Below the pieces are notes generated by a model. The model was not told the DNA's origin. It searched no databases and saw only the letters and a program-made list of their open reading frames with translations. A stretch of DNA of 45,027 nucleotides, taken from positions 1 through 45,027 of the forward strand of contig JAUSGG010000050.1 of the NCBI GenBank assembly GCA_030649165.1, in the 5' to 3' direction. The stretch comes from Armatimonadota bacterium (GTDB lineage Bacteria; Armatimonadota; UBA5829; JAUSEB01). Below are positions 1,037-25,509 of this stretch, in pieces; the first letter of the stretch is position 1, and each line of letters starts with the position of its first letter. Made by a program: the position numbers and the translations under genes.

Positions 1037-1079
1037 GGTAGTTTTGCCAGTTGACAGCCCGCCTGGCTTGTGCAAAGAT
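1037..1079 (+). promoter_or_regulatory. GGTA-N4-TRCC operator with weak promoter, followed by a decayed leader
   Basis: The palindrome-like site GGTAGTTTTGCC (1037-1048) is identical to the one at 10469-10480 and also ends 2 nt before TTGACAG (1051). The hexamer 17 bp downstream is AAAGAT, a poor -10. Sequence to about 1160 is a diverged copy of the leader at 10512-10644; for example AAACGTCGTTCCGGCAA here against AAACGCCGTTCCGGCAA there. The site lies 14 nt after the stop of the intact prepilin-like gene. I read it as an old copy of the cassette whose promoter may have been replaced by the one at 1325. The rest of the 1023-1385 gap holds no convincing gene. Confidence 0.5.
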
Positions 1080-1324
1080 GTGTTGATTTGGGAACCGCCA
1101 AACCGACAACTGATAACCGTGAACTCAAACGTGGCTGCGATTAAACGTCGTTCCGGCAATGGGCCGTCAGAGGCAAACCCATGTTCCTCAGGACGAGGTC
1201 ACCTGCCTGCGGGGGGGCCGGGCGCGAACACAGGAGCTCAACGCATTCATCTGCGACAACAGCGGCTGGCTGAAGTAGTCCTGGCATCCGACCTGTTGTA
1301 GCGCGTCACGCATATTCCCAATCA

Positions 1325-1353
1325 TTGACAGGCTTTCTTAGTCCGTGTACATT
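1325..1353 (+). promoter_or_regulatory. Promoter for the GH5-like multidomain gene
   Basis: TTGACA at 1325-1330, a 17-bp spacer, and TACATT at 1348-1353. The spacer starts GGC as in the promoters at 10483, 16283 and 25481. There is no GGTA-N4-TRCC site directly upstream. The predicted start near 1360 leaves a leader of about 25 nt with GGAGGG at 1371-1376 before the ATG. Confidence 0.6.
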
Positions 1354-1385
1354 AAGAACAACCTGCTCAGGGAGGGTGAACCGCA

Positions 1386-4300
1386 ATGGCCAAGTTGTAC
1401 TGTGTGATCCTCACCTGCCTCGTCTTGTTCGTGGCCCCTACAGAAGCGGCTGATGATCCGTCGGAAGCTTTCTGGCGCGACATCGTAGCGACCTCGCCCA
1501 GTAGCCCTACCGGCTATCTTAGTCTTCCTACTCCCATGAGCATCCCCAACGCCAAAGGGGCTGCGTTTGGAACATACGTGGTTTTGACGGACAAGGTGGT
1601 CACAACCTCGCAGATAGCGCCAACGGACGGCTTCTATGTGCAGGACAGATATGCGCCGGCGGGCATTCTGACACTTCCGCCGCCATCCTCCGCGCCGCGA
1701 GTCGAACGCCTTTTTCGCGCCGGCGACGTCGTGAATGTTGCCGGGATCACCGCTACGAACGGCGCAGAGGTGTGCATATTGGCCAACTTGGTCTCTGCAA
1801 CCGGCCAAACCACGACGGTTGCCCCCGTGGGAATATCCAATCGCTTCATCGGAGGAGGCCCTTTCGGCAAGCAGCCGGGTGTGCTTGACGCCGTCGATCC
1901 ACCCAGGTACTCCGCCGGAGTCAACAACGTCGGGTTGCTTGTCAAGACCTGGGGCAAGGTGACCTTCATTGAGTCGACTGCTCCGGGCTTCTTCTATCTG
2001 GATGACGGATCAGCCCTCCGAGACGGCTCTTTATATACGGGGGTGCGCGTATCCCCGGTCGCCCCCGGGCATTCGGTCGGCGATATGACGGCGGTCGTCG
2101 CGACAGTCGGCGCAAGCACGACATCGACGCCATTGACGCACGGCGACCAACCTGTGGCCGTACGTGAGCTTCGCACCCGCGTCGTCGAGGGCACAGGCGC
2201 CCCCGTCTCCGATCTGCGGGCCGACGTCACGTTGCCGACTGAGGCAGAGGTTACGTGGCAAACCGATGTTGACACCAGTTCAGTACTCGATGTTCGAGGC
2301 ATTGTCCGCGTGTTCAAGGGGCAAAGAGACTCCGCATCGTATGTCCAGGCGATCTGCTATGTGCCGGAGGAACACAAGTTCCTATCCGCCGACCTCATAG
2401 ACCAGGATCTGGCCGACATCAGGGCGACGAACGCGAATGCGATCAACCTCTATGGCTTGCAGGGAGACGCGCTCCTGAAAGCAGATGACAGGGGCTGCCA
2501 CAGCAATCTCCAGATGCATCTGCTGGCCGGATGTGAACCTGACCTGAAGATTATCGCCAGGCTGGAATGGTATGACCGCGAGACCTTTGCCTTTACCTGT
2601 GGCAACGACAGCGATGCCACCCGAATTGCGGACCACTATGCGGCCACCTTTCAGATGTTCCGAAATACCTTCCCGGACCGGCTGTTGTGCTACCTCATCA
2701 ACATGCCGCTGGACGACCTGATGGTAAAATCACACCTGCCTTTCGACTTCCCGCTGGCGGCTCAACAGCAGAACTACGCCCAATTCCTGTGCCGCAAGAT
2801 CAAGGAAGCCCATCCGGGCGCCAAGGTCCGAGCGGTTCTTCACTACTCGGTTTGCGACAACATACCCGCCGCGCCGTTGATGATCCCCCTTGATGATCCG
2901 GACAGGGACCCCCTGGACGGTGTTGCGCTTGTGGCATATTCGGGGAGATGCAACTCCTCGCCTTTCGCCAGCGGGATGGCTGTGGTTTCCTGCGGCTCGG
3001 CTGCGGGTCCGGGAGACGGCCCCAGCATCGCAGTGGACCCGGCAAACGTGGTGATCGGCTCGGATCAGATGGACTATTGGCTCGAAAAGGCGCGCCGGAC
3101 CAACTGGCCATATCACTCCCCTGCGGGGGCGCTGGCCATGGACGGTGTAGGTTTTTCCGATCAGCTCGAGCACTGGTCAGGGATTGTCTCCGACCGCAAC
3201 ACAAAGATTCAGGCGGCGCAATACCTGGCGGACTACCTCAGCGTTTCCAACCCGACCGACGGCTTCTCTTACTTCATGCTCTACGACAAGGCAGAAGGAA
3301 CGTTCGGGATTGTAGACCATCGGAGGGTGGAAGATGCGGCGCCTGCCAAGTCCCATCGGGTCGTGCTTAGCGACCTTTGGCCGGGCGCCGCCTACAGAGT
3401 CCGCGTTGTCGGGGACGGCCAATCGCAGTCGGCGAGTTTCGAGACGGCGCTCGAGTGTCCCGGTCCCGAGCGGCCTTGGCTGATTATCGAAACACCAGGC
3501 TACGGCGGAGTGCTGCTCGAAAATCCGGAGAACTGCATTGTCACGTGGAGGAGCAACCTGCAGACTGACGACAGAATCTCATTGTTCGCCGACGTCGACG
3601 ATCGAGGCTTGGACGGCACGCCGGTGGGTGAGGGAGTCGTGCAGGCGGGAGGCGGCGGGTCGACCACGGTGAATCTCGCGGCCCTGCGGCGTGGCGGCTA
3701 CCACATCTACGGCAAGGCGATTGTTTCAGACTGCTCGGCGCCCGGCTCCATCGTCTGGGACTACAGCCCCGGCAGGGCAGTCATTCCACAGGATCCGGCT
3801 ATAGAGGCGCAGAGGGCGACGGCAGGCATCGACATCGACGGCAAGCTTGACGAGGGCGACTGGGCGAATGTGGACTGGAAACAGTTCGCCGCGCATTCTG
3901 AAACAGGGACGATCGCCAAGGCGAAGTTCTTATGGAATGCCGACTTCCTCTACGCCGCCTTCGACGTTACGGACGCGAACGTCGAGGTTGATCCCCAGTG
4001 CAGTTGGGACAGCGATTCGGTTTCCGTGTGGCTCTGGGGCGGTGCCCCTATCGACGTCCGAACCGATCTGGCGGCCTTCGCCCGCGAATCCCGTCAGGGA
4101 CCATGCGAGGGCGGCTCGTCCAAGCCATTGGGCAAGGGTGAGACGGCTGCGTTCCTCAAGGGTGGCGCGACTTGCGCCACTGCAACCGGCTACACGGTCG
4201 AAATGTCTGTGCCGTGGAGTGAGGTTCACGTAGTGCCCCTGGTGGGGACCGTGATAAGCGCCGACCTGCTGTCGAAGGACTTCGCTACCCCCTGCAGCCC

Positions 4301-5237
4301 ACATACGAAGTGGTGGGACGGCGACGCGGAGGGTTGGCTCGGGAGCGCGATCGTCTTGGCCAATGATTTCACGGCGCACAGCGGGGCCAACCTGCCGTGG
4401 ATAAACTACGGGTGGGACGTCGGGCGCAACCCCTGGGGTGGAGCGCCCGGAGGATTCTCCAATAATCAAACTCGCCTTCAGGAGGACCTGCGCTTTCTGG
4501 CAGACAATGAGGCGCGGCTGGTGCGCGTATTCACCTTCTGCGACCTGCGCAGCGGTGTGAACTTCGATCCGTCGGGCAACCCACTTGGCTTCGACCAGTA
4601 TGCCCTGGCGGATTTCGACGCGCTGGTGAGCGCGGCTGAGGCCAATGGTTTGCGACTTATCCCTGTCCTCTTCGATTACACTATCGCCGACGGCGTGTAC
4701 TTCGAGCAAGGCGCGCCCGTTGGGGAGCGCCCGGACCTGATCTCGTCGCCTCAGAAACGCGCGGCGCTTCGCGATCTCTTCCGGTCTCTGATCACCAGAT
4801 ACGGGGGCCGCAAGGCCGTGTACGCGTATGACATTATGAACGAGCCGGAATACGCCTCGGCCGTAACCCGAACCGACCTGGAGCTATTCGTGCAGGATTT
4901 CGCCGACATGATCCACGCGGAGGATTCGGGGGCCAGGACCACATTGGGCTGCCGCAACCGAGGGGACCTGCAGAGTTGGAATACCTTCCCGCTTGATATA
5001 CATCAGTACCATCACTACGACGGCATGGAAGGCGAGCATCCATTCGACTACCCGGCCAGCCAGCTCGGCCTGCAGAAACCCGTCCTGGTCGGCGAGTGCC
5101 AGCCTACCACTGTGACGGCCAAGCTCAACACGGCATCCAGGAACGGTTATGCGGGGATCCTGTTCTGGAGCCTGAACGCCGACTACAGCTTCCGCGACGC
5201 AGCCTCTCAGTACGCGAATTGGGTGAGGCTGAGGTAG
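1386..5237 (+). CDS. Exported multidomain glycosidase-like protein (OB-like pair, TIM-barrel-like region, CBM9-like, GH5-like)
   Basis: This 1283-residue protein has a signal peptide (residues 1-21). Residues ~40-290 hold two OB-like modules, the second with NNVGLLVKTWGKV and YLDDGS. Residues ~330-650 look like a glycosidase-type barrel of unknown activity, followed by beta-sandwich segments. Residues ~800-960 resemble a family 9 carbohydrate-binding (DOMON-like) domain (IDGKLDEGDW, then FLYAAFDVTD). Residues ~1000-1283 resemble a GH5 cellulase/mannanase: a MNEP motif with Glu1153 as the likely acid/base, HQYHHYD, and VGEC with Glu1237 as the likely nucleophile. It probably acts outside the cell on plant-type polysaccharide; the substrate cannot be read from sequence. 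The ATG has GGAGGG 9 nt upstream. The GH5-like assignment is firmer than that of the middle region. Confidence 0.8.
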   Translation: MAKLYCVILTCLVLFVAPTEAADDPSEAFWRDIVATSPSSPTGYLSLPTPMSIPNAKGAAFGTYVVLTDKVVTTSQIAPTDGFYVQDRYAPAGILTLPPPSSAPRVERLFRAGDVVNVAGITATNGAEVCILANLVSATGQTTTVAPVGISNRFIGGGPFGKQPGVLDAVDPPRYSAGVNNVGLLVKTWGKVTFIESTAPGFFYLDDGSALRDGSLYTGVRVSPVAPGHSVGDMTAVVATVGASTTSTPLTHGDQPVAVRELRTRVVEGTGAPVSDLRADVTLPTEAEVTWQTDVDTSSVLDVRGIVRVFKGQRDSASYVQAICYVPEEHKFLSADLIDQDLADIRATNANAINLYGLQGDALLKADDRGCHSNLQMHLLAGCEPDLKIIARLEWYDRETFAFTCGNDSDATRIADHYAATFQMFRNTFPDRLLCYLINMPLDDLMVKSHLPFDFPLAAQQQNYAQFLCRKIKEAHPGAKVRAVLHYSVCDNIPAAPLMIPLDDPDRDPLDGVALVAYSGRCNSSPFASGMAVVSCGSAAGPGDGPSIAVDPANVVIGSDQMDYWLEKARRTNWPYHSPAGALAMDGVGFSDQLEHWSGIVSDRNTKIQAAQYLADYLSVSNPTDGFSYFMLYDKAEGTFGIVDHRRVEDAAPAKSHRVVLSDLWPGAAYRVRVVGDGQSQSASFETALECPGPERPWLIIETPGYGGVLLENPENCIVTWRSNLQTDDRISLFADVDDRGLDGTPVGEGVVQAGGGGSTTVNLAALRRGGYHIYGKAIVSDCSAPGSIVWDYSPGRAVIPQDPAIEAQRATAGIDIDGKLDEGDWANVDWKQFAAHSETGTIAKAKFLWNADFLYAAFDVTDANVEVDPQCSWDSDSVSVWLWGGAPIDVRTDLAAFARESRQGPCEGGSSKPLGKGETAAFLKGGATCATATGYTVEMSVPWSEVHVVPLVGTVISADLLSKDFATPCSPHTKWWDGDAEGWLGSAIVLANDFTAHSGANLPWINYGWDVGRNPWGGAPGGFSNNQTRLQEDLRFLADNEARLVRVFTFCDLRSGVNFDPSGNPLGFDQYALADFDALVSAAEANGLRLIPVLFDYTIADGVYFEQGAPVGERPDLISSPQKRAALRDLFRSLITRYGGRKAVYAYDIMNEPEYASAVTRTDLELFVQDFADMIHAEDSGARTTLGCRNRGDLQSWNTFPLDIHQYHHYDGMEGEHPFDYPASQLGLQKPVLVGECQPTTVTAKLNTASRNGYAGILFWSLNADYSFRDAASQYANWVRLR

Positions 5238-5330: not shown

Positions 5331-5511
5331 AAAATAACGAGGCTCCAGAACGACCGGACAGGGGCCTCTGGACGAAAAAACGACTCAGAAGACCCCTCAA
5401 GAAGGGCCATTTTGGGGCACTGCCGAGTTCTTCAGGAATCTCCTAGAACTATTGGTGCAAGTTGATGGAGCAGGCCCCCGCTCCCAACGTGCTACCTGCC
5501 GATAGCCGAGC

Positions 5512-5668
5512 AATAACGAAAACGTACTTGACTACCTGTACTGCGACGGTCACGTGCGGGCCCGCCCGCCGGGCAAGCGCCGTTCCACGTACCCGCAGGT
5601 AAGCTGGGAAGAGGCCCGCGAGTGCTACGTGGACAAGCAGATAGTATCGTTACCTCTGCCCGCCGTAG
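5512..5668 (+). pseudogene. Decayed 3' end of a prepilin-like (H-X9-DG type) gene
   Basis: Conceptual translation gives LDYLYCDGHVRARPPGK, then STYPQVSWEEARE and YVDK. It closely matches the last 45 codons of the gene at 246-1022. A single-base shift after the YVDK segment puts the ending YRYLCPP and TAG (5666-5668) in another frame. No pilin-type N-terminus is present upstream in 5238-5511. The gap 5238-5886 otherwise holds only the terminator-like hairpin, an operator site and a promoter. Confidence 0.75.
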
Positions 5669-5683
5669 GAGCTCTGCCTTCCT

Positions 5684-5786
5684 GGTAGAAATACCGGTTT
5701 TCTCCGCTGTTTCACCCTCAGATCACCCAAATAGCGGAAAACGAAAGAGAACTCCCATTGACAGCTTTGCGGGGGAAGGGTAGGGT
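5684..5786 (+). promoter_or_regulatory. GGTA-N4-TACC operator (5684-5695) and promoter (5758-5786) for the M4 peptidase gene
   Basis: GGTAGAAATACC at 5684-5695 is a perfect GGTA/TACC palindrome, 15 nt after the decayed prepilin stop codon, as at the other sites. Here no -35 follows immediately. TTGACAG occurs at 5758, with TAGGGT 17 bp downstream (5781-5786). The operator is therefore about 100 bp upstream of the predicted start, unlike the sites at 10469, 16269 and 25467. Confidence 0.5.
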
Positions 5787-5886: not shown

Positions 5887-8800
5887 GTGAGAGAGGATAT
5901 GCAGATTCCACGATTCTTGGTGTTCGCGATCTTGTCTCTCATCGCTTCCGCGCCGGCCTCTTCATTTGTCACGGACGCGCCCGTCCGGGGAAGCTTCGTA
6001 GATGAGACCAAACCGCCCGTCAGCGCTCCAATCGCGGGAGCCTATGCGGTAAGCCCGATGCGGCCTGGCAATCCCCCGAACGCCGCAGCCGCGGCGGCAT
6101 TGGACAGCGGATGGCAGGGTTTTCTCGCCGCCGCGGGCGCTAACTGGTCGGTTCAGTGGAACGCGGACACTCAGACCCCCGGCATCGCCTTCGGCAAACC
6201 GGTTTCCATCGCCGGTTTCGGAAAGCTCGGCAAGGAAAACGTCGAATCGGCTTGCCGCTCCTTCGTCCAAGCCAACAGGAGCCTGTTCAAGATCGATGCG
6301 TCCAGCCTGAAAATAGCCGCCTCCGGCAGAGACGGAGGCCGATGGCGCGTATCGTTCCAGCAACACTACAACGGCGTGCCCGTCTTCGGCGGCAACGTGA
6401 AGATGTCCTTCACCAAGGATGACCGACTGGTGATGTTTGGCTCCGCCGTCTTCCCCGGCGTCTCCACCGACACGTCGCCGTCGCTGGATGGCCGACAAGC
6501 CGTCGATATTGCCGTGAACGACGCTGGCAAGTCCGCGAAGTTTGGTCGGTTGGGCGATCCGGAATTGTGCATATTGCCGATCAGGCTGGTCACCGGATAT
6601 GACTATCTGCTGTGCTGGCGCGTACAGATTGCGAAGCCGGAGGCGCAGCAAAAGCTGGAGTACCTGATCGACGCCCACACGTGGACGGTCTTGAGGAAGT
6701 GGGATGCCCTCTGGTACGAAATCACCGGCACGGCAAGTGGCGACTATAAGCCGGAATTTGCGTCGGATGCCACGCAGGTCGGCCCATTGGCCGACGAGAT
6801 GGTGACCGCGGAGGCCCCGGGCTTTGCCGCGGCGTCGACTTACACGAGTCCAAGCGGCGCTTATTCACTGACTGCTCCGACAGATCCTTGCGCTGTGAAC
6901 GCAAAACTGAAAGGATTATATTGCGTTGTCACTCCTGGAAACGGTATCGCTTCCGTTTTCGAGCAGCAGGGCGTTGGACCGAACGATACCGTGAACGTCG
7001 TCTGGAATTCCACTCGCTATGCTCGAATCGTCGAGCCCAGCGCGTACTGGCATATGAATCTCGTGCGAGAGTACTACTCCTTGCTTGACCCGGGTTTCAC
7101 CGGTCTGGACTACGCCATGCCCGTCCGTGTTTCGTTGGCGGGCTACAATAACGCATATTGGGACGGCCTGGGAATAACCCTGGGGCAGGGGGACGGCGTC
7201 TACTACGGTGACTTTGGCCTCTACTCGGACGTCATCTACCACGAGTATACGCACGGCGTGACGGACAAAATCTACTCCGGGGTCTATTTCCCCTACGCCA
7301 TGGAATCGGGAGCGCTGAACGAGGGCTGGAGCGACTACTTCGGATGTCGCCTGAGCGTTAGCCAGAACCCTCTCTTGGGAGATGGAGGCCTCCTCATTGG
7401 CCAGCCCAGCGGCTTCCGCAACCTGGTGAACAACTACCGGCGTGAAAGTGACTGGGTCAATGAGGTGCACGGCGACAGCCAGATGTTCAGCGGTTCCCTG
7501 TGGGAAGCCCGGCAGACCTTGGGCACGACCATGGACGAACTGGTCCACTTCGCCCGGTACGACCACCCGGCGAGTTTTGAGGAAACGCTGGCCGCGATCA
7601 TAGTAGAGGATGACACCCGCTATGGCGACGCCGATCCCTCAAACGGCTCTCCTCACGCCCAGACCATATTCACGGCGTTCGGCAACCACGGCATGGGGGG
7701 GCTGCAGTGCCTCCCCGGCAATATCCGTATCGATGACTCCAGCGGAAACGCCAACGGCAGGATCGACCCGGGTGAGACCGTAAGCGTGGCGGTTACGTTG
7801 ACCAATTCGTGGGCCAACGCTGCCGATGTGAGCGCCGCGCTCACCTGCACGGATCCCTATGTGCAGGTACAAAAAGGCAATGCCGCTTTCCCGTCCGCGA
7901 GCTATGGCAGTACGGTGAACAATGATTCCGATATGTTCGTGATCTCGGTTGCGTCGAACTGCCCCGAGACGCGCACCATCTACTTCTCCTTACAGATCAA
8001 CGCGTCAGGACCGTATGCCTATTCGCGCACTTGTCTGCTCTATCAGTCCGTCGCCGTTGGGCAGATGGCCTATGATGATGACGGCAGCGATCTTAATATG
8101 AACTACGGCTTGGCGAGTGGCGGCATGGCCGTGCGCTTCACTCCTGACAGCTATCCCTGTTACCTGAGCGCGATCCGTTTGAAAATGATCGGCGGCGGTA
8201 CGGTACCCGTTAAGATATGGGACGACGACGCGCCCGGTGGCGTGCCCGGGACCTTGTTGGGTACGGTCAACGCAAGTATTGCGCAATCCGGCCAGTGGAT
8301 GGATGTGGACATCAGATCCCTCGACTTGGAGATCGATGACGGCAGTTTCTACGCCGGTTGGATCGAAGCGCAGGATAACAGGCCGTTTGCCAACGGGATG
8401 GACTTCGATCCGCCCTACGCCGGAAGAAGCTGGATATTCAACGGCTACTACTGGTACACCGTCGAGCTATCGGGCTGGCTGGCGAACAACATGGTGAGGG
8501 TCCGCTGGAGCAATACGCCGATTGCGCCCGGCCCGATCACGAATTTCGTGGCGTTCCCCGGCAGCCGGCAAGTCGGCCTTTCCTGGACCAACCCCACTGA
8601 GCCGGACTTCGCCGGGGCGAGGGTAATGTGCAAGACCACCGGCTATCTCACCGGCCCGACCGATGGAACACTGGTCTACAGCGGCACGGGAACGGGCTGC
8701 GTGCATGGCGGCCTTACGAACGGCACACCTTACTATTATGCCGCTTTCGCATTTGATGGAGCGCCCAATTACTCTCCGGCGGCGTTGGCGTCGGCTACTC

Positions 8801-10323
8801 CGCATTTTCAGCCGGACTGGCTCAATGAGACCTTCGACGGGCACAACGACGGTGATCTCGGAGGGCAGGGCGACTGGACCACGGTTGGCGGAATCAGCGG
8901 CCAGGTGCAGTCTGCGTACGCCAGGGGCGGAACGGGCAAGGCTGCTCTCCTTGACACCGTCGCTCAGGGCGCCTCCGTGGGGAACCTTATCGGTTTCACC
9001 TTCAAGACCGGCGGATACTGTTACTTCAGCTTTGATGTGGCCCAGGACGCAGCCGGAACGACAGGCCAGCTCTTAGGTTACGTCAGCGTATATGGCTCCG
9101 ATTCCCCCACAGAGATAGCCAGGGTGCACATCCAGAAGGGAAGACTGTTTGCCGAGTACGGCTCCGGAACCCTTGCCGTCCTGACGACTTCGGTGGCCAA
9201 TCTGAGCTGGTATAACGTCAAGATCGGCTTCAACATAGACACGAAGAAGATGGACTTCTGGCTCGATGGCTCGCCGAGGGGGACCAACTATGCCTGGAAA
9301 GGCACGGCGACCAACGTCTCAAGGGTGATAATATCGAGCGATAGGAATACGAACCTTACGCCGCAAAAGGCTTATATCGACAACGTTCGGTTCGAGCCGA
9401 AGCTTACTATCTCCAGCGTGACCGACGACGGCGCCTGGAGCCCGAGCCTTGACAAGCTTCACTTCGGCTTCGCCCCGGTGGCCGGGGCCGGCGAATACCA
9501 ATACGCTATAGGAACGACCTCCGGCGGGACTCAGATACGAGGCTGGACAAGCTGCGGGGCCTCCACGGACTACACGGCCACTGGCCTGAGTCTCACCCAG
9601 ACCACTACCACCTATTATATAAGCGGCCGGTGCGCTATGTATGCGAACTTCGGGCCGACAACTACGGCCAACGGCATAAAGGTGGCCCCCGGAATCGCCA
9701 CAATACCGGCGGCAAAGGAACTTGCTGACGGGACATCCGGCACGATCAAGGCCCTCAGAGGCAAGTTGGTCTCAGCGGCCTTCCCCGGATACTTCTACAT
9801 CCAGGAGCCGCCGATCGGCTACAGTGGGATCAAAGTGATCTCCCCTGCCACGGTGTCTCCCGGAGATGAGGTGGATGTGGCAGGCTTCATGGGAGGTTCC
9901 GGCTCAGAGAGATTCATAGACTGCACGGGCAACGGAGTCATCAAGACGACTCCAGGCCCCGGCGGTCCTTATCCCGTGGTTCTGACCAACGCTTCTGTTG
10001 GGGGCGCTGCTCTCAACGCCAACTCTCCCGGAGTGATGGCGGGAATCGGCCCCAACAACATAGGTCTGCTGGTGTGCGCCATTGGCCGAGTCGCCGAGAT
10101 CGAGCCGGTCACCCCGCCGGATGCCCCAACCTGGTTCACTATCGACGACGGCTCCGGCGTCAACGTGAAGTGCCTCGTTCCCTCCGGCGTCACCATAGAC
10201 GCGGCTTGGCAATACGTCGCGGTCACTGGCATATCATCCTGCGAAAACGTCGGCGCGGAACTCCACCGGCTGTTGCGCGTGAGGAGCCAGGAAGATATCA
10301 AGCCGTTGCTGGCGACGCCTTGA
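5887..10323 (+). CDS. Exported thermolysin-like (M4) metallopeptidase with C-terminal FN3, LamG-like and OB-like modules
   Basis: This 1478-residue protein is an extracellular zinc endopeptidase. It has a signal peptide and a propeptide (to ~residue 300) with the FTP-type motif GVPVFGG. The catalytic domain has HEYTH with His452, Glu453 and His456, and GALNEGWSD with Glu479 as third zinc ligand, which is the M4 arrangement. The C-terminal half has beta-sandwich domains, an FN3-like domain (~880-970), a concanavalin/LamG-like segment (~980-1180), and a tandem OB-like pair (~1277-1478) with NNIGLLV, TIDDGSG and the ending SQEDIKPLLATP. The GTG start has GGCGGGA upstream; an ATG four codons later (5899) is possible but has GAGAGG only 2 nt away. 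The substrate is not known. The shared C-terminus suggests a surface or envelope location (inference). Confidence 0.88.
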   Translation: MREDMQIPRFLVFAILSLIASAPASSFVTDAPVRGSFVDETKPPVSAPIAGAYAVSPMRPGNPPNAAAAAALDSGWQGFLAAAGANWSVQWNADTQTPGIAFGKPVSIAGFGKLGKENVESACRSFVQANRSLFKIDASSLKIAASGRDGGRWRVSFQQHYNGVPVFGGNVKMSFTKDDRLVMFGSAVFPGVSTDTSPSLDGRQAVDIAVNDAGKSAKFGRLGDPELCILPIRLVTGYDYLLCWRVQIAKPEAQQKLEYLIDAHTWTVLRKWDALWYEITGTASGDYKPEFASDATQVGPLADEMVTAEAPGFAAASTYTSPSGAYSLTAPTDPCAVNAKLKGLYCVVTPGNGIASVFEQQGVGPNDTVNVVWNSTRYARIVEPSAYWHMNLVREYYSLLDPGFTGLDYAMPVRVSLAGYNNAYWDGLGITLGQGDGVYYGDFGLYSDVIYHEYTHGVTDKIYSGVYFPYAMESGALNEGWSDYFGCRLSVSQNPLLGDGGLLIGQPSGFRNLVNNYRRESDWVNEVHGDSQMFSGSLWEARQTLGTTMDELVHFARYDHPASFEETLAAIIVEDDTRYGDADPSNGSPHAQTIFTAFGNHGMGGLQCLPGNIRIDDSSGNANGRIDPGETVSVAVTLTNSWANAADVSAALTCTDPYVQVQKGNAAFPSASYGSTVNNDSDMFVISVASNCPETRTIYFSLQINASGPYAYSRTCLLYQSVAVGQMAYDDDGSDLNMNYGLASGGMAVRFTPDSYPCYLSAIRLKMIGGGTVPVKIWDDDAPGGVPGTLLGTVNASIAQSGQWMDVDIRSLDLEIDDGSFYAGWIEAQDNRPFANGMDFDPPYAGRSWIFNGYYWYTVELSGWLANNMVRVRWSNTPIAPGPITNFVAFPGSRQVGLSWTNPTEPDFAGARVMCKTTGYLTGPTDGTLVYSGTGTGCVHGGLTNGTPYYYAAFAFDGAPNYSPAALASATPHFQPDWLNETFDGHNDGDLGGQGDWTTVGGISGQVQSAYARGGTGKAALLDTVAQGASVGNLIGFTFKTGGYCYFSFDVAQDAAGTTGQLLGYVSVYGSDSPTEIARVHIQKGRLFAEYGSGTLAVLTTSVANLSWYNVKIGFNIDTKKMDFWLDGSPRGTNYAWKGTATNVSRVIISSDRNTNLTPQKAYIDNVRFEPKLTISSVTDDGAWSPSLDKLHFGFAPVAGAGEYQYAIGTTSGGTQIRGWTSCGASTDYTATGLSLTQTTTTYYISGRCAMYANFGPTTTANGIKVAPGIATIPAAKELADGTSGTIKALRGKLVSAAFPGYFYIQEPPIGYSGIKVISPATVSPGDEVDVAGFMGGSGSERFIDCTGNGVIKTTPGPGGPYPVVLTNASVGGAALNANSPGVMAGIGPNNIGLLVCAIGRVAEIEPVTPPDAPTWFTIDDGSGVNVKCLVPSGVTIDAAWQYVAVTGISSCENVGAELHRLLRVRSQEDIKPLLATP

Positions 10324-10331
10324 CCCTGTAA

Positions 10332-10454
10332 CAACAACGAAAACATACTCAACCCCTACTGCGATGGTCACGTGCTTATCCGCGGGTAAGCTGGGAAGAG
10401 GCCAGGGAGTGGTTCGTGGATAAGGGGAAGTACAGGTATCTCTGGCCGCCGTAG
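10332..10454 (+). pseudogene. Decayed 3' end of a prepilin-like gene, with internal deletion
   Basis: Directly after the M4 peptidase stop codon the sequence encodes NNENILNPYCDGHV. It then jumps, with roughly 30-40 nt missing relative to 5560-5600, to WEEAREWFVDKGKYRYLWPP and TAG (10452-10454). This is a tail of the gene family at 246-1022 with a deletion and frame change. No start or pilin leader is present. Confidence 0.75.
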
Positions 10455-10468
10455 GTTTGCCAAAAGCA

Positions 10469-10511
10469 GGTAGTTTTGCCAGTTGACAGGCAGCCTGGTT
10501 ATTGTTACAGT
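10469..10511 (+). promoter_or_regulatory. Operator and promoter for the subtilase gene
   Basis: GGTAGTTTTGCC (10469-10480), two bases, TTGACA (10483-10488), a 17-bp spacer, TACAGT (10506-10511). The operator centre lies about 43 bp upstream of the predicted start, a position typical for an activator contacting RNA polymerase next to the -35 (inference). The whole block aligns without gaps to 16269-16311. Confidence 0.65.
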
Positions 10512-10644
10512 TGAGTGTTTCTGGAAAACATAGTTGTTCATTTGCGTGGAAGCGTTGAAACGCCGTTCCGGCAACACTCTGGTCACCCGAACGGCGCGGA
10601 GCTAGTGGTGAAACCGACCACGAGCGTGTGCTCGCGCGTCGGTT
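10512..10644 (+). ncRNA. Conserved structured 5' leader, copy A
   Basis: The leader is nearly identical to 16312-16444. It can fold into CGCCGTTC (10561-10568) with GAACGGCG (10589-10596), and a second hairpin AACCGAC (10612-10618) with GTCGGTT (10638-10644). Inside the second is CGAGC (10621-10625) with GCTCG (10630-10634) around a GTGT loop. The ~200-nt leader ends just before a GGGGGG stretch and the ATG at 10717. I do not recognise a known riboswitch class. Confidence 0.45.
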
Positions 10645-10716
10645 CTTGCATTTGTTCTGAACCGGACCAAATGTCGATGCTTGTTCTACTGCACTTGAGT
10701 GCTTTGGGGGGCTGAC

Positions 10717-13700
10717 ATGAAACGACCGTCTCACTTTGTGATCTCAGGCTTTGTAGTATTCGTCTTATTCCTCATCTCGTGCTGCGCATCCTTCGCTATA
10801 CTCGACCAGGAAGCGGGTGTTCCAGCGCAACCACAGTATCGCCCGGACCGAATCCTCGTGAAGCCCAAGCGGGGACTGGCTCTGTTCCGGCTTGAGGAGT
10901 TGCACGGTCAGCACGGCGTCAGGGTTCGGCGGATCTTTGCCAGGATCGGTAACCTGCAGGTTATCGAACTGCCGAAAGGCGCTGGTGTTCTGGACCTCAT
11001 CGACAAGTACAACAAGAGCGGATTGGTTGAATACGCGGAGCCGGACTACATCGTGAGTACTTGTGCGACCGAGCCAAATGATCCTAAGTACGTTGACGGC
11101 ACGCTCTGGAGCCTGAACAACACCGGGCAGAACGGGGGAACGGCGGACGCCGACATTGACGCGCCGGAGGGCTGGGATATCATCCACGACGCTCCGACTG
11201 TGATCGTGGCTGTCATCGACACCGGCGCGCGCTACACGCATGAGGACCTTGCTGCCAATATGTGGTCCAATCCTGGAGAGACACCCGGAAACGGCATAGA
11301 CGACGACGGAAACGTCTATGTGGACGACGTCTATGGTATCAACGCCATCACAGCCTCAGGAAACCCAAATGACGATAACGGCCACGGCACGCATGTTTCG
11401 GGGACCATCGGCGCCGTTGGCAACAATAGCAAGGGCGTTGCCGGAGTCGCCTGGAGGGTCAAGATTATGGCCTGTAAGTTTGCGGACAGCGGTGGCAGCG
11501 GGTACACCTCCGACGAAATAGAGTGCATAGACTATGCCATTTCGAAAGGCGCTCACATCATTAACGCCAGTTGGGGCGGACCTAATTACAACCAGTCTTT
11601 GTACGATGCAATTGCAGCCGCCCGAGACGCAGGCATCATTTTCGTTGCGGCCGCAGGTAATGGCGGTTCCGATCAGATCGGCGACAACAACGACATCGTT
11701 CCCGAATATCCCGCCAGCTATGATCTTGACAACATCGTATCGGTCGCTGCTACCGACAGGAACGACGGATTGGCAAGCTTCTCCAACTACGGCCTCAACT
11801 CAGTTGATCTGGGCGCTCCCGGTGCCAGTATTACGTCTGCTGTGAACACTTCAGACTCGGCCTACGGCGTGAAATCAGGCACGTCAATGGCCGCGCCCCA
11901 CGTTTCCGGCGCACTGGCTCTACTGGCTGCGGCGTACCCGGGGGACACCTACAGCCAGCTGACCGCCCGGCTCCTAACCACTACCGATCCCATACCTGCA
12001 CTAGACGGTAAATGCCAAACCGATGGGCGTCTCAATCTTTATGGTGCCCTTACGCTTGGCACCTTGCCCGACTGGCAGTGCTCCACCGATGTTCCCAAGT
12101 CGATCCCCGATCTGAGCACGGTGACCTCTACCCTCACAATATCGGATCCCGATTGCATACAGGATTTGAACGTCAAGCTGAAGATCATTCATACTTGGGA
12201 TTCGGATTTGGACGTCTACCTCATACATCCGGACGGAACAAGAGTCGAGTTGTTCACCGATGTCGGCGTCTCTGGGGACAACTTCACGGACACCGTGTTG
12301 GACGACGAAGCCGCCACCAGCATTACCTTGGGGACCGCCCCATTTACCGGAACCTATCGCCCGGAGGGCACACTTTCATCGTTTGATGGGAAACCGGCCG
12401 CGGGGCAGTGGACGCTCGAAATAACAGATGACACGGCGTCAGACACCGGCACACTGCAATCCTGGTGCTTGCTGATGACAACTGGGCAGTGCGTTCCTCG
12501 CGTGACCAACGTAACCAGCGCAACGAATGGCTGCTACGGGCCGGGCTCCAACATCGACATAACTGTCACCTTCAGCCAGGCCGTGTGCTTCACGGGCGCG
12601 CCGCAATTGGAATTGGAAACCGGGGCGAGCGACCGAATGGCAAACTGCGTTTCAGGAAGCGGGGACACGCTGACCTTCCGTTACACGGTACAGGCGGGTG
12701 ATACCGCCTCTGACCTTTGCTACAAGACCACAGGTTCGCTGACGCTGAACGGCGGGACCATTACGGACTGCGCGGGCGCGAACGCCAGCCTTACGCTGCC
12801 AATCCCGGGACTCTCCGGTTCGCTGTGCTACAACAACGCGATCGTCATCGACACGTCGGCGCCAACGGTTAGCGTGAATCGCTTGAACCCGTCCGGTCAG
12901 AGTACGAACCTGCAGTCGGTCGTTTGGCGAGTAACGTTCAACGAAGCGGTGACCGGTGTGGACACCGTGGAACCGTGGGATTTCGCCCTCAGAGTGGTCT
13001 TGGGGCCGATATCGGGAGCTCACATAGTCTCGGTCAGTCCGGTCAGCTCCACGGTGTATGATGTAACGGTTGACACGGGATCGGGAGACGGGGAACTCGC
13101 CCTGGATGTGCCGCCCTCCGCCACCATTTACGACTGTGGGAATAACGACTACAACTCAACCTATACGACCGGCCAGACTTACAAGATCGATAGAACCGCG
13201 TGCACCGTGACCAACGTAACCAGCTCTACACTGAATGGCGCTTATAACGCGCTGGATGTGATCTCAATTCAGGTGACGTTCAGCGAAGTCGTTTACGTAA
13301 CCGTGATCACCGGGGCGCCGCGACTGGAATTGGAGACTGGGGCCATCAAACGGAAGGCGAACTACTCCTCAGGCAGCGCCAGCAGCACATTGACCTTTAC
13401 GTATACAGTGCAAGCCGGCGACGTCTCTCCCGATCTGGACTACACAAGCATCAACGCGCTTGAGCTGAATGGAGGCACGATACGTGACGCCGCGGGAAAC
13501 AACGCCAACCTGACATTACCGGCTCCAGGTGGCCCTAATTCCCTGAGCGATAACAAGGACATCGTGATCGACACGGATACGCCGGTCGCTCCCAGCAAAC
13601 CGGATTTGGACCCGTCGGACGACACCGGCGAATCCAATTCGGATGACTGCACTCGCAATACCACCGGTCTCACGCTCGCCGGAACCGCCGAGGCAGGCTC

Positions 13701-16172: not shown

Positions 16173-16181
16173 CCCACCGGC

Positions 16182-16254
16182 CCGCAGGATGCTGGGAAGA
16201 GGCGAGATAGTGCTCGTGGTTGAGGGCAAGCACAGGTATTTGCGGCCGCCGTAG
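16182..16254 (+). pseudogene. Short decayed 3' end of a prepilin-like gene
   Basis: CCGCAGG followed by GCTGGGAAGAGGC and, after substitutions that create stops, the ending GGTATTTGCGGCCGCCGTAG aligns with the tails at 5600-5668 and 10385-10454. Only about 24 codons remain and its 5' side abuts the MITE-like element. The TAG at 16252-16254 lies 14 nt before the operator, the same spacing as at 10452. Confidence 0.6.
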
Positions 16255-16268
16255 GTTTGCCAAAAGTA

Positions 16269-16311
16269 GGTATTTATACCAGTTGACAGGCTGCCTGGTT
16301 CTTGTTACGGT
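16269..16311 (+). promoter_or_regulatory. Operator and promoter for the surface-protein operon
   Basis: GGTATTTATACC (16269-16280) is a perfect palindrome. Two bases later comes TTGACA (16283-16288), a 17-bp spacer and TACGGT (16306-16311). It differs from the 10469 copy mainly inside the operator, where the substitutions make the palindrome perfect. Confidence 0.65.
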
Positions 16312-16444
16312 TGAGTGTTTCTAAAAAAAATAGTTGTTCATTTGCGTGGAAGCGTTGAAACGCCGTTCCGACAACACCCTGGTCACCCGAACGGCGCGGA
16401 GCTAATGGTGAAACCGACCACGAGCGTGTGCTCGCGCGTCGGTT
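16312..16444 (+). ncRNA. Conserved structured 5' leader, copy B
   Basis: It aligns without gaps to 10512-10644. Both hairpins are retained and the differences fall in loops or single strands. After the second hairpin the sequence is T-rich (TTTTCCATGTTTTT), which makes an attenuator-like role possible (inference). A strong SD (GGAGGAAGG) follows before the ATG at 16487. Confidence 0.45.
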
Positions 16445-16486
16445 TTCCATGTTTTTGGACCATATCCGCAAAGAGGAGGAAGGATA

Positions 16487-17818
16487 ATGAGGAGTCTGCT
16501 ATCAACAGTTTGCGCCAACCATTTATTGCTCCTCCCGCTCGCCGGCTTATTGCTAATATTGGCATCGGTCCCGGCCCTGGCGCAATGGGTGCCTGCCAGC
16601 ATCAGCTATCAAGGGAAGCTGACGGATACGGCCGGACAACCGCTTAGCGGCGCATATCAGATCCAGTTCAAGCTCTACGACACTTCAAGTGGTGGTTCGC
16701 CGTTTTGGACATCGTCAACGCAGAGCATCACTACCGGTGGCGGCCTTTTTGCGACGACGATAGAGGGGACTTCTCCGCCCCTTACGTCGTCAGTAATCCT
16801 GGGAAGAACTGACGTGTGGCTGGAGACGTCAGTAGGAGGCACGGTGTTGTCGCCACGGGTGAAATGGTCGTCAGTACCGTACGCTCTGTGGGCCGACTAT
16901 GCATCGCGGGCGTACTTGGCTTCCTTGGCTATCGATCTCAGTTTTCCCTTTGCCAAGACCGTATCCGGTGCGGACACGGTCTTCCAGATCGTCAATCAGG
17001 GCAACGGAATCCCATCCGACAAGGCGGTGTTCGAGATCGTCAATCAGGGCAGTGGTTTTCCCGGCCTATTCCATAATGAAGCATTCGGAACGTGGGCAGT
17101 GCTCGGGTTTGAGGGCCATGGCGTACTTGCGGATAATTTCGGCGCAAGCACCCACGGAACTCTCGGCAATTCCTACTCGGGTGTTTACGGCGTGAACTTT
17201 GCGTCCGGCACCGAAGGCCACCTGGGCACCCCTAACTACGGGCTTTCAGCCTCGGCTGGCGCCGGGGGCTTGGGCGCCGCAAATTTCCAAGGTAAGGTTG
17301 TCGTGACTGGCGATTTGAGCGTCAGCGGCGCAAAGTATTTCAGGATAGATCATCCGCTGGATCCGGCTAACAAGTATCTCCTTCATTCCTGTGTCGAAAG
17401 TCCCGAGATGCTCGACGCGTACAGCGGCAACAGTGTGCTAGACGCGAGTGGGGAGTCGTGGGTGGAGTTGCCGTCCTACTTCGAAGCCCTTAACAAGGAC
17501 TTCCGTTACTCTCTTACGGCGGTAGGAGCGCCCGGGCCGAACCTCTATGTAGCGGAGGAAATCAAGGACAACAGGTTCAAGATCGCGGGCGGCAAGCCGG
17601 GAGGGAAGGTCTCGTGGCAGGTGACTGGCGTTCGAAACGATGCGTACGCCCGGAAGCACCCGATCGTGGTCGAGCAGGACAAGCTGGCAAATGAGCGTGG
17701 CTTCTACTTGCACCCTGATCTCTACGGACAACCTGCGGTAAAGGCGCTTGGGAGGCTGCCCGGGCCTACGGCGGTTGGCCTGCCTGGACTGCTTAAAGGC
17801 GGGAGGAATGTGCGTTGA
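16487..17818 (+). CDS. Exported tail-fibre-like surface protein
   Basis: This 443-residue protein has a signal peptide (to ~residue 32). Residues ~38-130 form the widespread surface domain that begins SYQGKLTDTAGQPLSGAYQ and ends near VPYALWA. A glycine-rich middle (~165-275) resembles phage-tail or trimeric surface repeats. The C-terminal part starts FRIDHPLDPANKYLLHSCVESPEM and contains WVELPSYFEALN and FKIAGGKPGGKVSWQVTG, a block common in large bacterial surface proteins. The function is unknown; it is probably cell-surface structural. The ATG has GGAGGAAGG 3-4 nt upstream. It is co-transcribed with the next gene, whose TTG start overlaps its TGA. Confidence 0.8.
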   Translation: MRSLLSTVCANHLLLLPLAGLLLILASVPALAQWVPASISYQGKLTDTAGQPLSGAYQIQFKLYDTSSGGSPFWTSSTQSITTGGGLFATTIEGTSPPLTSSVILGRTDVWLETSVGGTVLSPRVKWSSVPYALWADYASRAYLASLAIDLSFPFAKTVSGADTVFQIVNQGNGIPSDKAVFEIVNQGSGFPGLFHNEAFGTWAVLGFEGHGVLADNFGASTHGTLGNSYSGVYGVNFASGTEGHLGTPNYGLSASAGAGGLGAANFQGKVVVTGDLSVSGAKYFRIDHPLDPANKYLLHSCVESPEMLDAYSGNSVLDASGESWVELPSYFEALNKDFRYSLTAVGAPGPNLYVAEEIKDNRFKIAGGKPGGKVSWQVTGVRNDAYARKHPIVVEQDKLANERGFYLHPDLYGQPAVKALGRLPGPTAVGLPGLLKGGRNVR

Positions 17819-22272: not shown

Positions 22273-22278
22273 CAGCTT

Positions 22279-22307
22279 ATTTTGTACCGGCGGTGGGTGG
22301 GTGTCAA
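22279..22307 (-). promoter_or_regulatory. Promoter for the DUF6785-type gene, probably leaderless
   Basis: Read on the minus strand: TTGACA (22307-22302), a 17-bp spacer, CAAAAT (22284-22279). The expected start is about 6-7 nt further, at 22272-22273, which is the A of the ATG or one base before it. Confidence 0.45.
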
Positions 22308-22380
22308 GAGTCGAAGGAGTCGAGGGAGTCGGTGTCCCTGCAAGCGCTTCGGACCTATAACCCTATAACCCTACAACCCT

Positions 22381-22442
22381 AACCGGTAATACTACCGGTT
22401 TTGCCCGAATCCGTTGACAGCGCGTGTGCGGGGGCGTATAAG
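22381..22442 (+). promoter_or_regulatory. Long GGTA/TACC palindrome and promoter for the DUF362 gene
   Basis: AACCGGTAATACTACCGGTT (22381-22400) has perfect 8-bp arms around ATAC and is the longest form of the GGTA-N4-TRCC site here. TTGACA follows at 22414-22419, a 17-bp spacer and TATAAG at 22437-22442. The operator is 15-16 bp further upstream than at 10469, about one and a half helix turns. Upstream (22350-22380) is a run of CCCTATAACCCTA-type repeats. Confidence 0.55.
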
Positions 22443-22476
22443 GGAGACAGGCAACGCTTTTCTGGGCCGGTTTGGC

Positions 22477-22627
22477 GAAACAGTTCAATCTTGCGGGAAC
22501 GCTATCCAGGTAATGGAGCATGCGCCACCTACCCCCTCTCCCCCTGGGCGGGAGAGGGTTGGGGTGAGGGGGGCGGATCTATTATCGTGGACGATTTCAT
22601 AGACTTCCCGTAACACTGAACTCTTAC
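22477..22627. mobile_element. 151-bp MITE-like element in the leader of the DUF362 gene
   Basis: Left end GAAACAGTTCAA (22477-22488) and right end CTGAACTCTTAC (22616-22627) are imperfect inverted repeats of the family seen at 39480-39670. The flanking octamers GGTTTGGC (22469-22476) and GGTTTGCC (22628-22635) differ at one base, fitting a target duplication. The interior carries a CCCTCTCC/GGGAGAGGG hairpin around 22531-22560. It encodes nothing and lies between the promoter and the start codon at 22652. Confidence 0.6.
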
Positions 22628-22651
22628 GGTTTGCCATAGAGGGGGAGTAAG

Positions 22652-25420
22652 GTGTCGGAGGATCACGCGGGCCGGCATAACGGCACGACGCATGTCTGTC
22701 CGAAAACGGGACGGAGTGGGGCCGCTTCGGCTCGGCAACGTCAAGGAACAACGCGCTTGGGCCGGCGATTGCGCAGACTGCTGCTGCCGGTTCTGGGTTT
22801 GCTGTCGATCATCTGGTTTCTGGTCAGGGTGATTCCGAAACCGAGCCGCGCGGCTTATCCGTGTCAGCGCGTGGCCGCGCCGATGGCGAGCGGGTTCGTG
22901 ATCTGGCTCGCCGGCCTGATCGGTTCGGCGTGGGCGTATCAGCGGGGCAAGAGGTTCCTGCGCGAGTCGCGCGCTTGGAAGGCGGTCCTCTGCTCAGTCG
23001 TTCTCGCGGTCGGCGGCTTGGTTGCGGTGTCCAATATTCCGCGCCCGGCGTCGTCTGACGTTTCCCACGGCCCCATTGGCGTAGCGAAGGGGATTCACCC
23101 TGGTCGCGTGGTGTGGGTCCACAACCCCGCCGTCACCGATTGGCAGGGGCCCGGCTACGGACACTGGTGGGAAAGCAGCCACACGGATCAGACCGAGGTG
23201 GACACCATGATGTCGCGCGCCGTCCGCGGACTGACCGGCGCTGGCGACGATGCCGCCGCGTGGGACGCGCTCTTCAGGTACTTCAACCAGACCCACGACA
23301 GAGGCGACGTCGGGTATCAGCCGGGGGAGAAGATCGCCATCAAGGTCAACCTGGTCGGCTGCATCGACAGCGGTGGATCGGGCGCTGTCGATCCCAATAC
23401 GTATGACCTTGTAAGTAATATGGACTACATGAACACGTCCCCGCAGGTCATGTTGGCCCTGCTCCGCCAACTGGTGAACGTTGCGGGCGTGAACCAGGCA
23501 GACATCTCGATCGGCGATCCCGTGTGCCTGTTCCCCAACCAGTACTACAACCTTCTCCACGATGAGTTCCCTAACGTGAAATATCTGGACAATAGGGGGT
23601 ACTTCAACAGAACCAAGCCATTGCCGTCGGCGGTCGACTTCTACTTCAGCGCTCGGCCGACGGGAGTGACGCAGGACAAGGTACTTGCTCCTTTTGCCGA
23701 GGCGACGTATTTTATCAACCTGGCGAATCTTAAGAGCCACAGCTCAGCCGGTGTGACGCTGTGCGCTAAGAACTACTACGGTTTCCTCCGGCTGCCTCTC
23801 CAGGGCGGCTACTACAACCTGCACAATACTCTGCCCGCAAACGTCCCGGGGATGGGTTACTATCGACCTGTTGTGGACATGATGGGGCACGCGCATACCG
23901 GCGGCAAGGCGCTCCTCTATCTCATTGACGGTCTCTACGCGGGCGTGCATCCGACCGAAAACTCGCCGAGGAAATGGAACTCCTCTCCCTTCAACGGCTA
24001 CTGGACGTCCAGCCTATTCGCCTCCCAGGACCCTGTCGCCATCGATTCCGTCGGGTACGATTTCCTCTATAACGAATGGAGCGACTACCCGCACATCAGC
24101 GGGGCCGAAGACTACCTGCACGAGGCGGCCTTTGCGGACAACCCGCCTTCGGGTACCTTCTACGACCCTGACCACGACACCAACACCACTCGCCTTTCCA
24201 GCCTCGGCGTCCACGAGCACTGGAACGACCCCGTGCACAGGCAGTACAGCCGGAACCTTGGCCTGAACCAGGGCATCGAGCTGGTTTCGCTGAACTACAA
24301 CGGCGCGGTCCGGGAGGCGAAGCTCAAGGACAACGGCGCGAACACCATCGTGCCGGGCGTAGCGGTCACAGCGGCTTTCCTCGACAGCTTCTATATAGAG
24401 AGTGACGACCGGGCAAGCGGGATGCGCGTGCAAATGCCGGGCCACGGTCTCGCCGCCGGCTCTCGCGCGAACGTAAGAGGACTTGTCCAGACCGACCTCA
24501 CGAACGATGAGCGTTTCATAGCGGCGACGTCCGCCTCAAACGCCGGAGTCGGCGCGGTCCGGCCCGTCGGGATGAACAGCAGGGCTCTCGGGGGCGGGGA
24601 TTGGAACTACAATCCCTCGGCGATGACCGGGCAGAGGGGCGTCACAGGGGCCTCCGGCCTCAACAACATCGGTCTGCTGGTGAGCATTTGGGGCCGGTTT
24701 GCGTACCTCGACTCCTCGACGTTCACCGTTGATGACGGCGGCGGGCCGGTCAAATGCGTTGTTCCGCCCAGCGTCACGCTCGACCCGGCGTGGAGCTTCG
24801 TGCGTGTGACTGGCGCATCTTCGTGCGAGAAGGACGGCGATAACCTGGTGCGGCTCATCCGCGTCCGCGACGTCGAGACGGACACGCGCACGATCAGCGA
24901 GAACGCTTTCGACTCCGACGAGCAGGGCTGGTCGATCTATACATGGGCGTCCGGGCCGTATAACCCGGGCACGATGGTATGGGAGAGCGGAGCCATGCGC
25001 TGCAGCGGCGCTGGAGGCAGCGACAACAGCGACACCTGCACCCGCGAGGGCGGGGAGATCTACAAGACGATTTCCACCGCGGGCTACCGCAACATCAAGG
25101 TGAGCTACGATCTGCGAGTCAACTCTCTCGGAAACACGCCCAACGGCCCCGCCGGTGACTGCACTGTGGACCACGATCTGATCGACGAGCAGCTTACGGT
25201 CTTCTACTCCACGAATGGCGGCTCGACCTGGACCGAAGCCGAATACCTGACCCGAAGCGCTCTCCTCGCCGATTACCAAACCTACGCCACGCGAACCCTC
25301 GACCTGAGCGGAATCAGCGCCTGCAACGACAACCCCGCCTTCGCCCTCCGCTTCCGCTGGCAGGTCAACAACCCCAACGATGCAGCGGATTTGGATAATG
25401 TGAGGGTGACGGGGAATTAA
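22652..25420 (+). CDS. Membrane-anchored DUF362 protein with OB-like pair and C-terminal beta-sandwich
   Basis: This 922-residue protein has an N-terminal basic segment followed by membrane helices (around 45-65, 80-95 and 112-130), including RVIPKPSRAAYPCQRVAAPMASGF, an arrangement typical of large DUF362 proteins. Residues ~150-540 form the DUF362 domain (IAIKVNLVGC, QADISIGDP, FINLANLKSHSSAGVTLCAKNYYG, DPVAIDSVGYDFL). DUF362 proteins are often linked to iron-sulfur or redox functions, but no ferredoxin-type cysteine cluster is visible here. Residues ~560-750 are two OB-like modules (SFYIESDD; LNNIGLLVSIWGRF, FTVDDGGG). Residues ~755-922 resemble a MAM-like or carbohydrate-binding jelly roll. 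The GTG start has GGGGGAG 5 nt upstream. Confidence 0.8.
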   Translation: MSEDHAGRHNGTTHVCPKTGRSGAASARQRQGTTRLGRRLRRLLLPVLGLLSIIWFLVRVIPKPSRAAYPCQRVAAPMASGFVIWLAGLIGSAWAYQRGKRFLRESRAWKAVLCSVVLAVGGLVAVSNIPRPASSDVSHGPIGVAKGIHPGRVVWVHNPAVTDWQGPGYGHWWESSHTDQTEVDTMMSRAVRGLTGAGDDAAAWDALFRYFNQTHDRGDVGYQPGEKIAIKVNLVGCIDSGGSGAVDPNTYDLVSNMDYMNTSPQVMLALLRQLVNVAGVNQADISIGDPVCLFPNQYYNLLHDEFPNVKYLDNRGYFNRTKPLPSAVDFYFSARPTGVTQDKVLAPFAEATYFINLANLKSHSSAGVTLCAKNYYGFLRLPLQGGYYNLHNTLPANVPGMGYYRPVVDMMGHAHTGGKALLYLIDGLYAGVHPTENSPRKWNSSPFNGYWTSSLFASQDPVAIDSVGYDFLYNEWSDYPHISGAEDYLHEAAFADNPPSGTFYDPDHDTNTTRLSSLGVHEHWNDPVHRQYSRNLGLNQGIELVSLNYNGAVREAKLKDNGANTIVPGVAVTAAFLDSFYIESDDRASGMRVQMPGHGLAAGSRANVRGLVQTDLTNDERFIAATSASNAGVGAVRPVGMNSRALGGGDWNYNPSAMTGQRGVTGASGLNNIGLLVSIWGRFAYLDSSTFTVDDGGGPVKCVVPPSVTLDPAWSFVRVTGASSCEKDGDNLVRLIRVRDVETDTRTISENAFDSDEQGWSIYTWASGPYNPGTMVWESGAMRCSGAGGSDNSDTCTREGGEIYKTISTAGYRNIKVSYDLRVNSLGNTPNGPAGDCTVDHDLIDEQLTVFYSTNGGSTWTEAEYLTRSALLADYQTYATRTLDLSGISACNDNPAFALRFRWQVNNPNDAADLDNVRVTGN

Positions 25421-25466
25421 GCGGTTGGCGCTTTCTGCTCGCGGCCGTCGCCGCGTCGAAAAAACA

Positions 25467-25509
25467 GGTAATATTGCCGGTTGACAGGCTACCTGCTACG
25501 TGCTACGGT
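25467..25509 (+). promoter_or_regulatory. Operator and promoter for the PEP-CTERM gene
   Basis: GGTAATATTGCC (25467-25478), two bases, TTGACA (25481-25486), a 17-bp spacer starting GGC, TACGGT (25504-25509). The architecture matches 10469-10511 and 16269-16311. The predicted start near 25516 leaves a 27-nt leader, and excludes the in-frame TTG at 25474 as the translation start. There is no long leader here. Confidence 0.65.

Follow-up and report, generated by a model that had tools for sequence, protein, structure and literature searches.

The boxes bound by LuxR-type activators are 20-bp palindromes centred at -42.5 (PMC4471428), and CRP acts from -41.5 (class II) and from -61.5, -71.5, -81.5 and -91.5 (class I), for a helical reason (PMC10882989). 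GerE of Bacillus subtilis (PDB 1fse) is a stand-alone helix-turn-helix (HTH) protein of about 74-90 aa; PedR of Synechocystis (NF052366), likewise a small single-domain protein, is redox/thioredoxin-responsive and tied to photosynthetic electron transport (PMC4361706). We analysed a 45,027-nt contig (C151, hereafter the window) of a 5.48-Mb metagenome-assembled genome (MAG) of an Armatimonadota bacterium, labelled G000, in which the palindrome GGTAN4TRCC recurs upstream of genes encoding exported proteins. The kind of system considered here is known (LuxR-HTH activator, class I/II promoters, cyclic di-GMP (c-di-GMP) riboswitch), and this member and the in-series wiring of its parts appear to be undescribed in the literature searched. 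Judged by title and abstract, that literature holds no paper on an Armatimonadota regulon, and the same applies to c-di-GMP in this phylum.

Our results suggest that the palindrome, in its refined form AACTGGTA-AWWT-TACCAGTT, is probably the operator of an activator of a large regulon of exported-protein genes, with a riboswitch at some of the targets. The activator is most likely to be found among the stand-alone GerE/LuxR-type HTH proteins of about 84 aa, as one of them or several. The operator, its phasing, the class of its targets and the riboswitch association were computed directly, and the regulon with its activator logic is well supported, to the point of being very probable.

The window contains 10 strand-matches to GGTAN4TRCC, compared with a mean of 1.2 in shuffled sequence (0 of 100 shuffles reached 10). 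All six sites of the original prediction were found, and are given below with their offset, i.e. the distance from the palindrome end to TTGACA.

1037..1048, forward strand: operator GGTAGTTTTGCC, class II position, offset 2 to TTGACA at 1051-1056; -10 AAAGAT at 1074-1079; matrix score 23.5 bits
5684..5695, forward strand: operator GGTAGAAATACC, distal, offset 62 to TTGACA at 5758-5763; -10 TAGGGT at 5781-5786; matrix score 20.6
10469..10480, forward strand: operator GGTAGTTTTGCC, class II position, offset 2; -35 at 10483-10488; -10 TACAGT at 10506-10511
16269..16280, forward strand: operator GGTATTTATACC, class II position, offset 2; -35 at 16283-16288; -10 TACGGT at 16306-16311
22381..22400, forward strand: operator AACCGGTAATACTACCGGTT with 8-bp arms, class I position, offset 17; -35 at 22414-22419; -10 TATAAG at 22437-22442; 27.0 bits
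25467..25478, forward strand: operator GGTAATATTGCC, class II position, offset 2; -35 at 25481-25486; -10 TACGGT at 25504-25509

The 2-nt gap predicted at 1037, 10469, 16269 and 25467 was measured at all four, and the -10 sequence expected at the last three (TACRGT, after a 17-bp spacer) is present at each; the -10 belonging to the 1037 site is weak. The operator at 22385 had been placed further upstream of its promoter, and the measured distance is 17 nt. The 2-nt geometry is therefore real at four sites of the window, but it is only one among several phased positions. The phase fit of the distal site at 5684 is only approximate, and the site at 25467 is the best-scoring of the whole class (41.5 bits). 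An additional match to the pattern, at 32-43, was rejected as an operator, its matrix score being below 10 bits.

Although all six sites are present, as evidence they are partly duplicates. The segments around 10469 and 16269 are 89% identical over 272 bp, and the former shares 86% identity with the 1037 segment over 122 bp and 81% with the 5684 segment over 80 bp. The sites at 1037, 10469 and 16269, and partly that at 5684, all derive from a single duplicated segment, and hence are not independent of one another within the window. The duplicated cassette (10380-10650 and 16180-16450) comprises the operator with its promoter and riboswitch, as well as the C-terminal end of a pilin-like frame; shorter copies are located at about 945-1066 and 5510-5670.

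A scan of the whole genome for GGTAN4TRCC-N2-TTGACA, which the original prediction had proposed as a check, gave 10 matches on 7 contigs and none with the reversed-pattern control, a frequency above that expected by chance. The same arrangement is present in six other genomes of the same order or class (G005, G007, G012, G020, G026 and G027; all MAGs are incomplete to some degree). The operator alone was counted as CWGGTAN4TACCWG: G000 has 34 copies (control, 4), and 28 genomes of the class together have 189 (control, 38). Alignment of 35 sites yielded the consensus cAAAACCWGGTA-AWWT-TACCAGTTGACA-N17/18-TAnnnT, and no operator scoring at least 15 was found in 0.9 Mb of shuffled sequence. The exact 18-base operator pattern had no match in viral contigs and six in 257 Gb of named genomes; two of these are from Armatimonadota, and the remaining four, spread over unrelated organisms, look like chance. 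A second operator array was detected in contig C224 of G000 (9.8-26.7 kb; L211, L131), with six sites in 17 kb, mostly placed before large exported-protein genes and with no adjoining TTGACA.

Strict palindromes were then picked irrespective of promoters and, after removal of near-duplicates, the 105 that remained were scanned downstream, in both orientations, for pairs of TTGACA-like and -10-like sequences. This revealed 57 promoters, compared with 3 in control stretches, whose offsets cluster at 2-3 (n = 11), 17-19 (18), 27-29 (7), 38-41 (7) and 51 (2); for offsets of 8-60 a Rayleigh test with a 10.5-bp period gave p of about 5e-9. Without the -10 requirement, hexamers matching TTGACA in at least five of six positions peak at offsets 2 (16) and 18 (21). 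The operator centres are found at about -43.5, -59, -69, -80 and -92 relative to the inferred start. The operators stand at helically phased distances upstream of sigma-70-type -35 elements, as at class I/II activator-dependent promoters, which we regard as good evidence that an activator contacts RNA polymerase; it is from this phasing that we infer activation itself.

The geometry is that of CRP/FNR, with a single class II position and a series of class I positions spaced by about 10.5 bp, but the armatimonad class I series (-59, -69, -80) is displaced by about 2 bp and the half-site is neither TGTGA nor TTGAT. With the lux box the operator shares its form, a 20-bp palindrome, and a centre near -42.5, which fits a GerE-type binder. 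Its outer half-site, A(C/A)CTG...CAG(G/T)T, also resembles that of the lux box. It differs in the inner bases (GGTA/TACC), and its class I sites are no rarer than its class II sites. In family f2 (L076 of G018, L078 of G004, L105 of G012) several class II sites have a 3-nt, and not a 2-nt, offset to TTGACA.

The first genes downstream of operator-promoter pairs encode a predicted signal peptide in 58 of 66 cases, compared with 196 of 642 genes located away from operators (p about 5e-20; signal peptides were assigned by a simple in-house rule, and genes were likewise called by a simple script). The enrichment upstream of signal-peptide genes that the original prediction anticipated is therefore present, and the identities it gave to the M4 peptidase, subtilase, tail-fibre-like, DUF362 and PEP-CTERM proteins, as exported or membrane-anchored products, were upheld. 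The genes concerned are as follows.

1386..5237, forward strand: exported protein with CBM9 and GH5-like domains, downstream of the 1037 site
5887..10323, forward strand: exported M4/fungalysin-type metallopeptidase
10699..15660, forward strand: exported subtilase (S8, P-domain, Big repeats), under operator and riboswitch
16487..17818, forward strand: exported 'SYQGKLTD' tail-fibre-like protein, under operator and riboswitch; no Pfam match
22652..25420, forward strand: DUF362 membrane/exported protein
25543..26730, forward strand: PEP-CTERM exported protein, start codon GTG at 25543, downstream of the promoter

For the gene at 1386 a promoter of its own (TTGACA-N17-TACATT at 1325) is nearer than that of the 1037 site. 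A longer open reading frame of the PEP-CTERM gene, starting at 25474, would overlap the promoter. Targets in other parts of the data set include multihaem cytochromes (C105; G005) and LVIVD-like proteins. A recurrent non-exported exception is the gene of an S1-domain RNA-binding protein in G020, G026 and G027; there the operator precedes the S1-domain gene, which is followed by small exported proteins, in a conserved arrangement (L045, L046 and L125 in G027, G026 and G020).

Just downstream of the operators at 10469 and 16269, the window contains two riboswitches that the original prediction had overlooked. Both exceed the gathering threshold of the RF03169 covariance model (score 40).

10539..10628, forward strand: c-di-GMP-II-GAG aptamer (RF03169, 60.9 bits); 3' strand overlaps an intrinsic-terminator-like hairpin (-21.5 kcal/mol)
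16339..16428, forward strand: c-di-GMP-II-GAG aptamer (RF03169, 60.4 bits); overlapping terminator-like hairpin (-26.1 kcal/mol), then TTTT

Six copies of RF03169 were found in the class (four in G000, one in G001 and one in G011), and all six are located directly downstream of the operator, or a recognisable variant of it, with a 17-bp promoter. In five of them a strong hairpin can also fold from the aptamer's 3' strand, mostly with a T run after it. Since this strand doubles as a terminator hairpin, the ligand is predicted to block termination, so that c-di-GMP would permit read-through. No degenerate riboswitch was found after the 1037 site at E<=2. As members of their family the window aptamers are unremarkable; the novelty is that every copy in the class stands behind the same operator.

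The window was predicted to contain no regulator gene, and none was found; the likely regulator is an 84-aa GerE-like protein encoded elsewhere. Three regulator families were compared: GntR-LacI, CRP/FNR and GerE. GerE-domain proteins are present in all operator-rich genomes, absent from G006, G008, G013 and G016 and marginal in G024, and these five genomes have 0-4 operator model hits (Mann-Whitney p = 0.0008, the kinship of the genomes being ignored). Both G026 and G027 encode exactly three GerE proteins (E<=1e-5), all stand-alone, and in both a perfect operator at offset 17 from a promoter precedes a stand-alone GerE gene. In G020 two divergent GerE genes have two operators between them; one is at offset 17 from a promoter whose -10 the other overlaps. 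These arrangements look like autoregulation and, together with the phyletic match, make a GerE protein the likely binder.

The stand-alone proteins pass the PF00196 (GerE) cut-off of 23.5 bits with 54-82 bits, and nearly all have the recognition helix SKRTVDFHL or a close variant. Their frames comprise 82-150 codons, the HTH filling the C-terminal part, with no N-terminal receiver domain, so they are not NarL/FixJ response regulators. Those of 81-84 aa align only to the HTH part of the models and have no N-terminal autoinducer-binding domain, and are thus not quorum-sensing LuxR proteins. The candidates match the HTH domains of GerE, LiaR/VraR, RhlR, SdiA and CviR, but have little beyond the HTH. 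G000 encodes three, on contigs C147 (84 aa, MAAIGLPETHENRAIRLTKREL...), C13 and C15; they share the recognition helix, and any of them may be the binder. Of the originally predicted single activator of a surface/secretome regulon, the regulon, the activator geometry and the exported targets stand, but the activator may be more than one protein, given these three paralogues.

The 84-aa protein of G000 matches 1fse with an E value of 9e-10, and PedR with 57 bits, below the 120-bit equivalog cut-off. Both GerE and PedR differ from the armatimonad system, in which the targets are the secretome and the operator is a long palindrome. EpsA (TIGR03020), an XrtB/PEP-CTERM-associated LuxR-type protein, shows HTH similarity (48-57 bits) and, as here, has some PEP-CTERM targets, but it is longer (model length 247), its 170-bit cut-off is missed here, and the armatimonad regulon is far wider than PEP-CTERM genes. 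An unusual protein encoded on the minus strand of contig C110 of G000 (L326; GerE match 294-452) consists of a HicB-like antitoxin domain, recognised by eye, fused to a GerE HTH with the helix SKRTIDVHL; it may compete for the same operator.

Several observations weigh against a GerE-type activator. Family f4 (G019, G021, G023, G025) has GerE proteins but few operators (0-5 model hits, with none in G025), none of the three stand-alone GerE genes of G000 has an operator, and the phyletic test rests on few independent losses (G024 in f5; genera g6 and g10 in f2). GntR-LacI regulators also adjoin operators, in G000 (C8, C218) and in G007/G012/G018, though operator-bearing genomes without a homolog exist. 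Finally, the -35 elements are near consensus, which is unusual for strictly activator-dependent promoters and is partly an effect of the search filter.

The observations on f4 and on the GerE genes of G000 would also suit a reading in which the regulon and its activator are real and the regulator belongs to another DNA-binding family (e.g. of the XRE, LysR, MarR or TetR type), the GerE match being a by-product of shared lifestyle or genome reduction; the comparison covered GntR-LacI, CRP and GerE proteins only. We consider this rather unlikely, as two unrelated genera have operators right beside stand-alone GerE genes, with scores of at least 15 absent from the shuffled sequence, and the operator has the size and class II position of a lux box.

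It is very unlikely that the operator is bound by GntR-HTH/LacI-sensor regulators (AraR-like chimeras) acting as local repressors of neighbouring exported-protein genes. Two such genes in G000 (C8, C218) do have an operator some 100-150 bp upstream, and in a third lineage (G007/G012/G018) the operator is adjacent. However, no homolog was found at E<=1e-10 in the operator-bearing G002, G004, G009, G010 and G011, dozens of such proteins in G014 and G024 are accompanied by no more operators, the operators have offsets of 41 (C8) and 29 (C218) to the promoter of the regulator itself, i.e. an activator position, and phased upstream sites are ill-suited to repression. Because these genes adjoin operators in four genomes and are missing from others, they are probably targets. 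At C8 and C218 (L196, L176) they are followed by exported-protein genes, under class I operators.

CRP/FNR was rejected as the common regulator, since no well-scoring HTH_Crp_2 protein is encoded in the operator-bearing G002, G004, G011, G015, G026 and G027. In G014 a CRP gene is located near targets; its recognition helix, GETLSR, carries the E..SR residues of the FNR type.

It is likewise very unlikely that the palindrome serves a repressor and overlaps the -35 of promoters that are constitutively strong, as might be thought from the near-consensus promoters and from the terminal TT of the class II palindrome, which is common to TTGACA. The promoters located 17-51 nt downstream of an operator outnumber those at 2-3 nt and follow 10.5-bp steps, and sites at -59 to -92 are unable to occlude the -35; with these phased upstream positions the repressor reading fails. 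The notion that the motif is merely a trace of local segmental duplication without regulatory meaning, drawn from the copied segments of the window, is already refuted by the whole-genome and class-wide counts, with 10 sites on 7 contigs of G000 and others, in different genera and families, before unrelated exported-protein genes.

In the mechanism that we propose for a GerE-type activator, a dimer of one or more stand-alone GerE/LuxR-type HTH proteins of about 84 aa, with the helix SKRTVDFHL, would bind directly upstream of the -35, with its centre at about -43.5 (class II), or alternatively one or more helical turns higher, at about -59, -69, -80 or -92 (class I). Bound there, the activator would bring RNA polymerase to TTGACA promoters that are strong. 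For some targets, including two in the window, the polymerase would then meet a c-di-GMP-II-GAG riboswitch with a terminator-forming 3' strand, through which c-di-GMP would let it pass. Such a surface gene would need both the activator and the second messenger c-di-GMP. Tentatively, and with somewhat more doubt than belief, we extend this to a master switch of the whole secretome, formed by phylum-specific single-domain GerE-like activators of about 84 aa, with several paralogues and one recognition helix, autoregulated, acting from class II and class I positions and in series with riboswitches.

From sequence alone, the Armatimonadota thereby gain an operator, a promoter grammar, a candidate regulator and a list of targets (multihaem cytochromes, proteases, PEP-CTERM and LVIVD-like proteins). 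The helical phasing points to classical class I/II activation far from the model phyla, and the succession of operator and c-di-GMP riboswitch makes the control of the armatimonad surface directly testable via one small protein.

Two further loci were recognised in the window: a gene for an Eco57I-like restriction-modification methylase with an HSDR_N domain (28048-30918, minus strand), and a cluster encoding response regulators, a PAS histidine kinase and a SpoIIE/RsbU-type phosphatase (39779-44808, plus strand).

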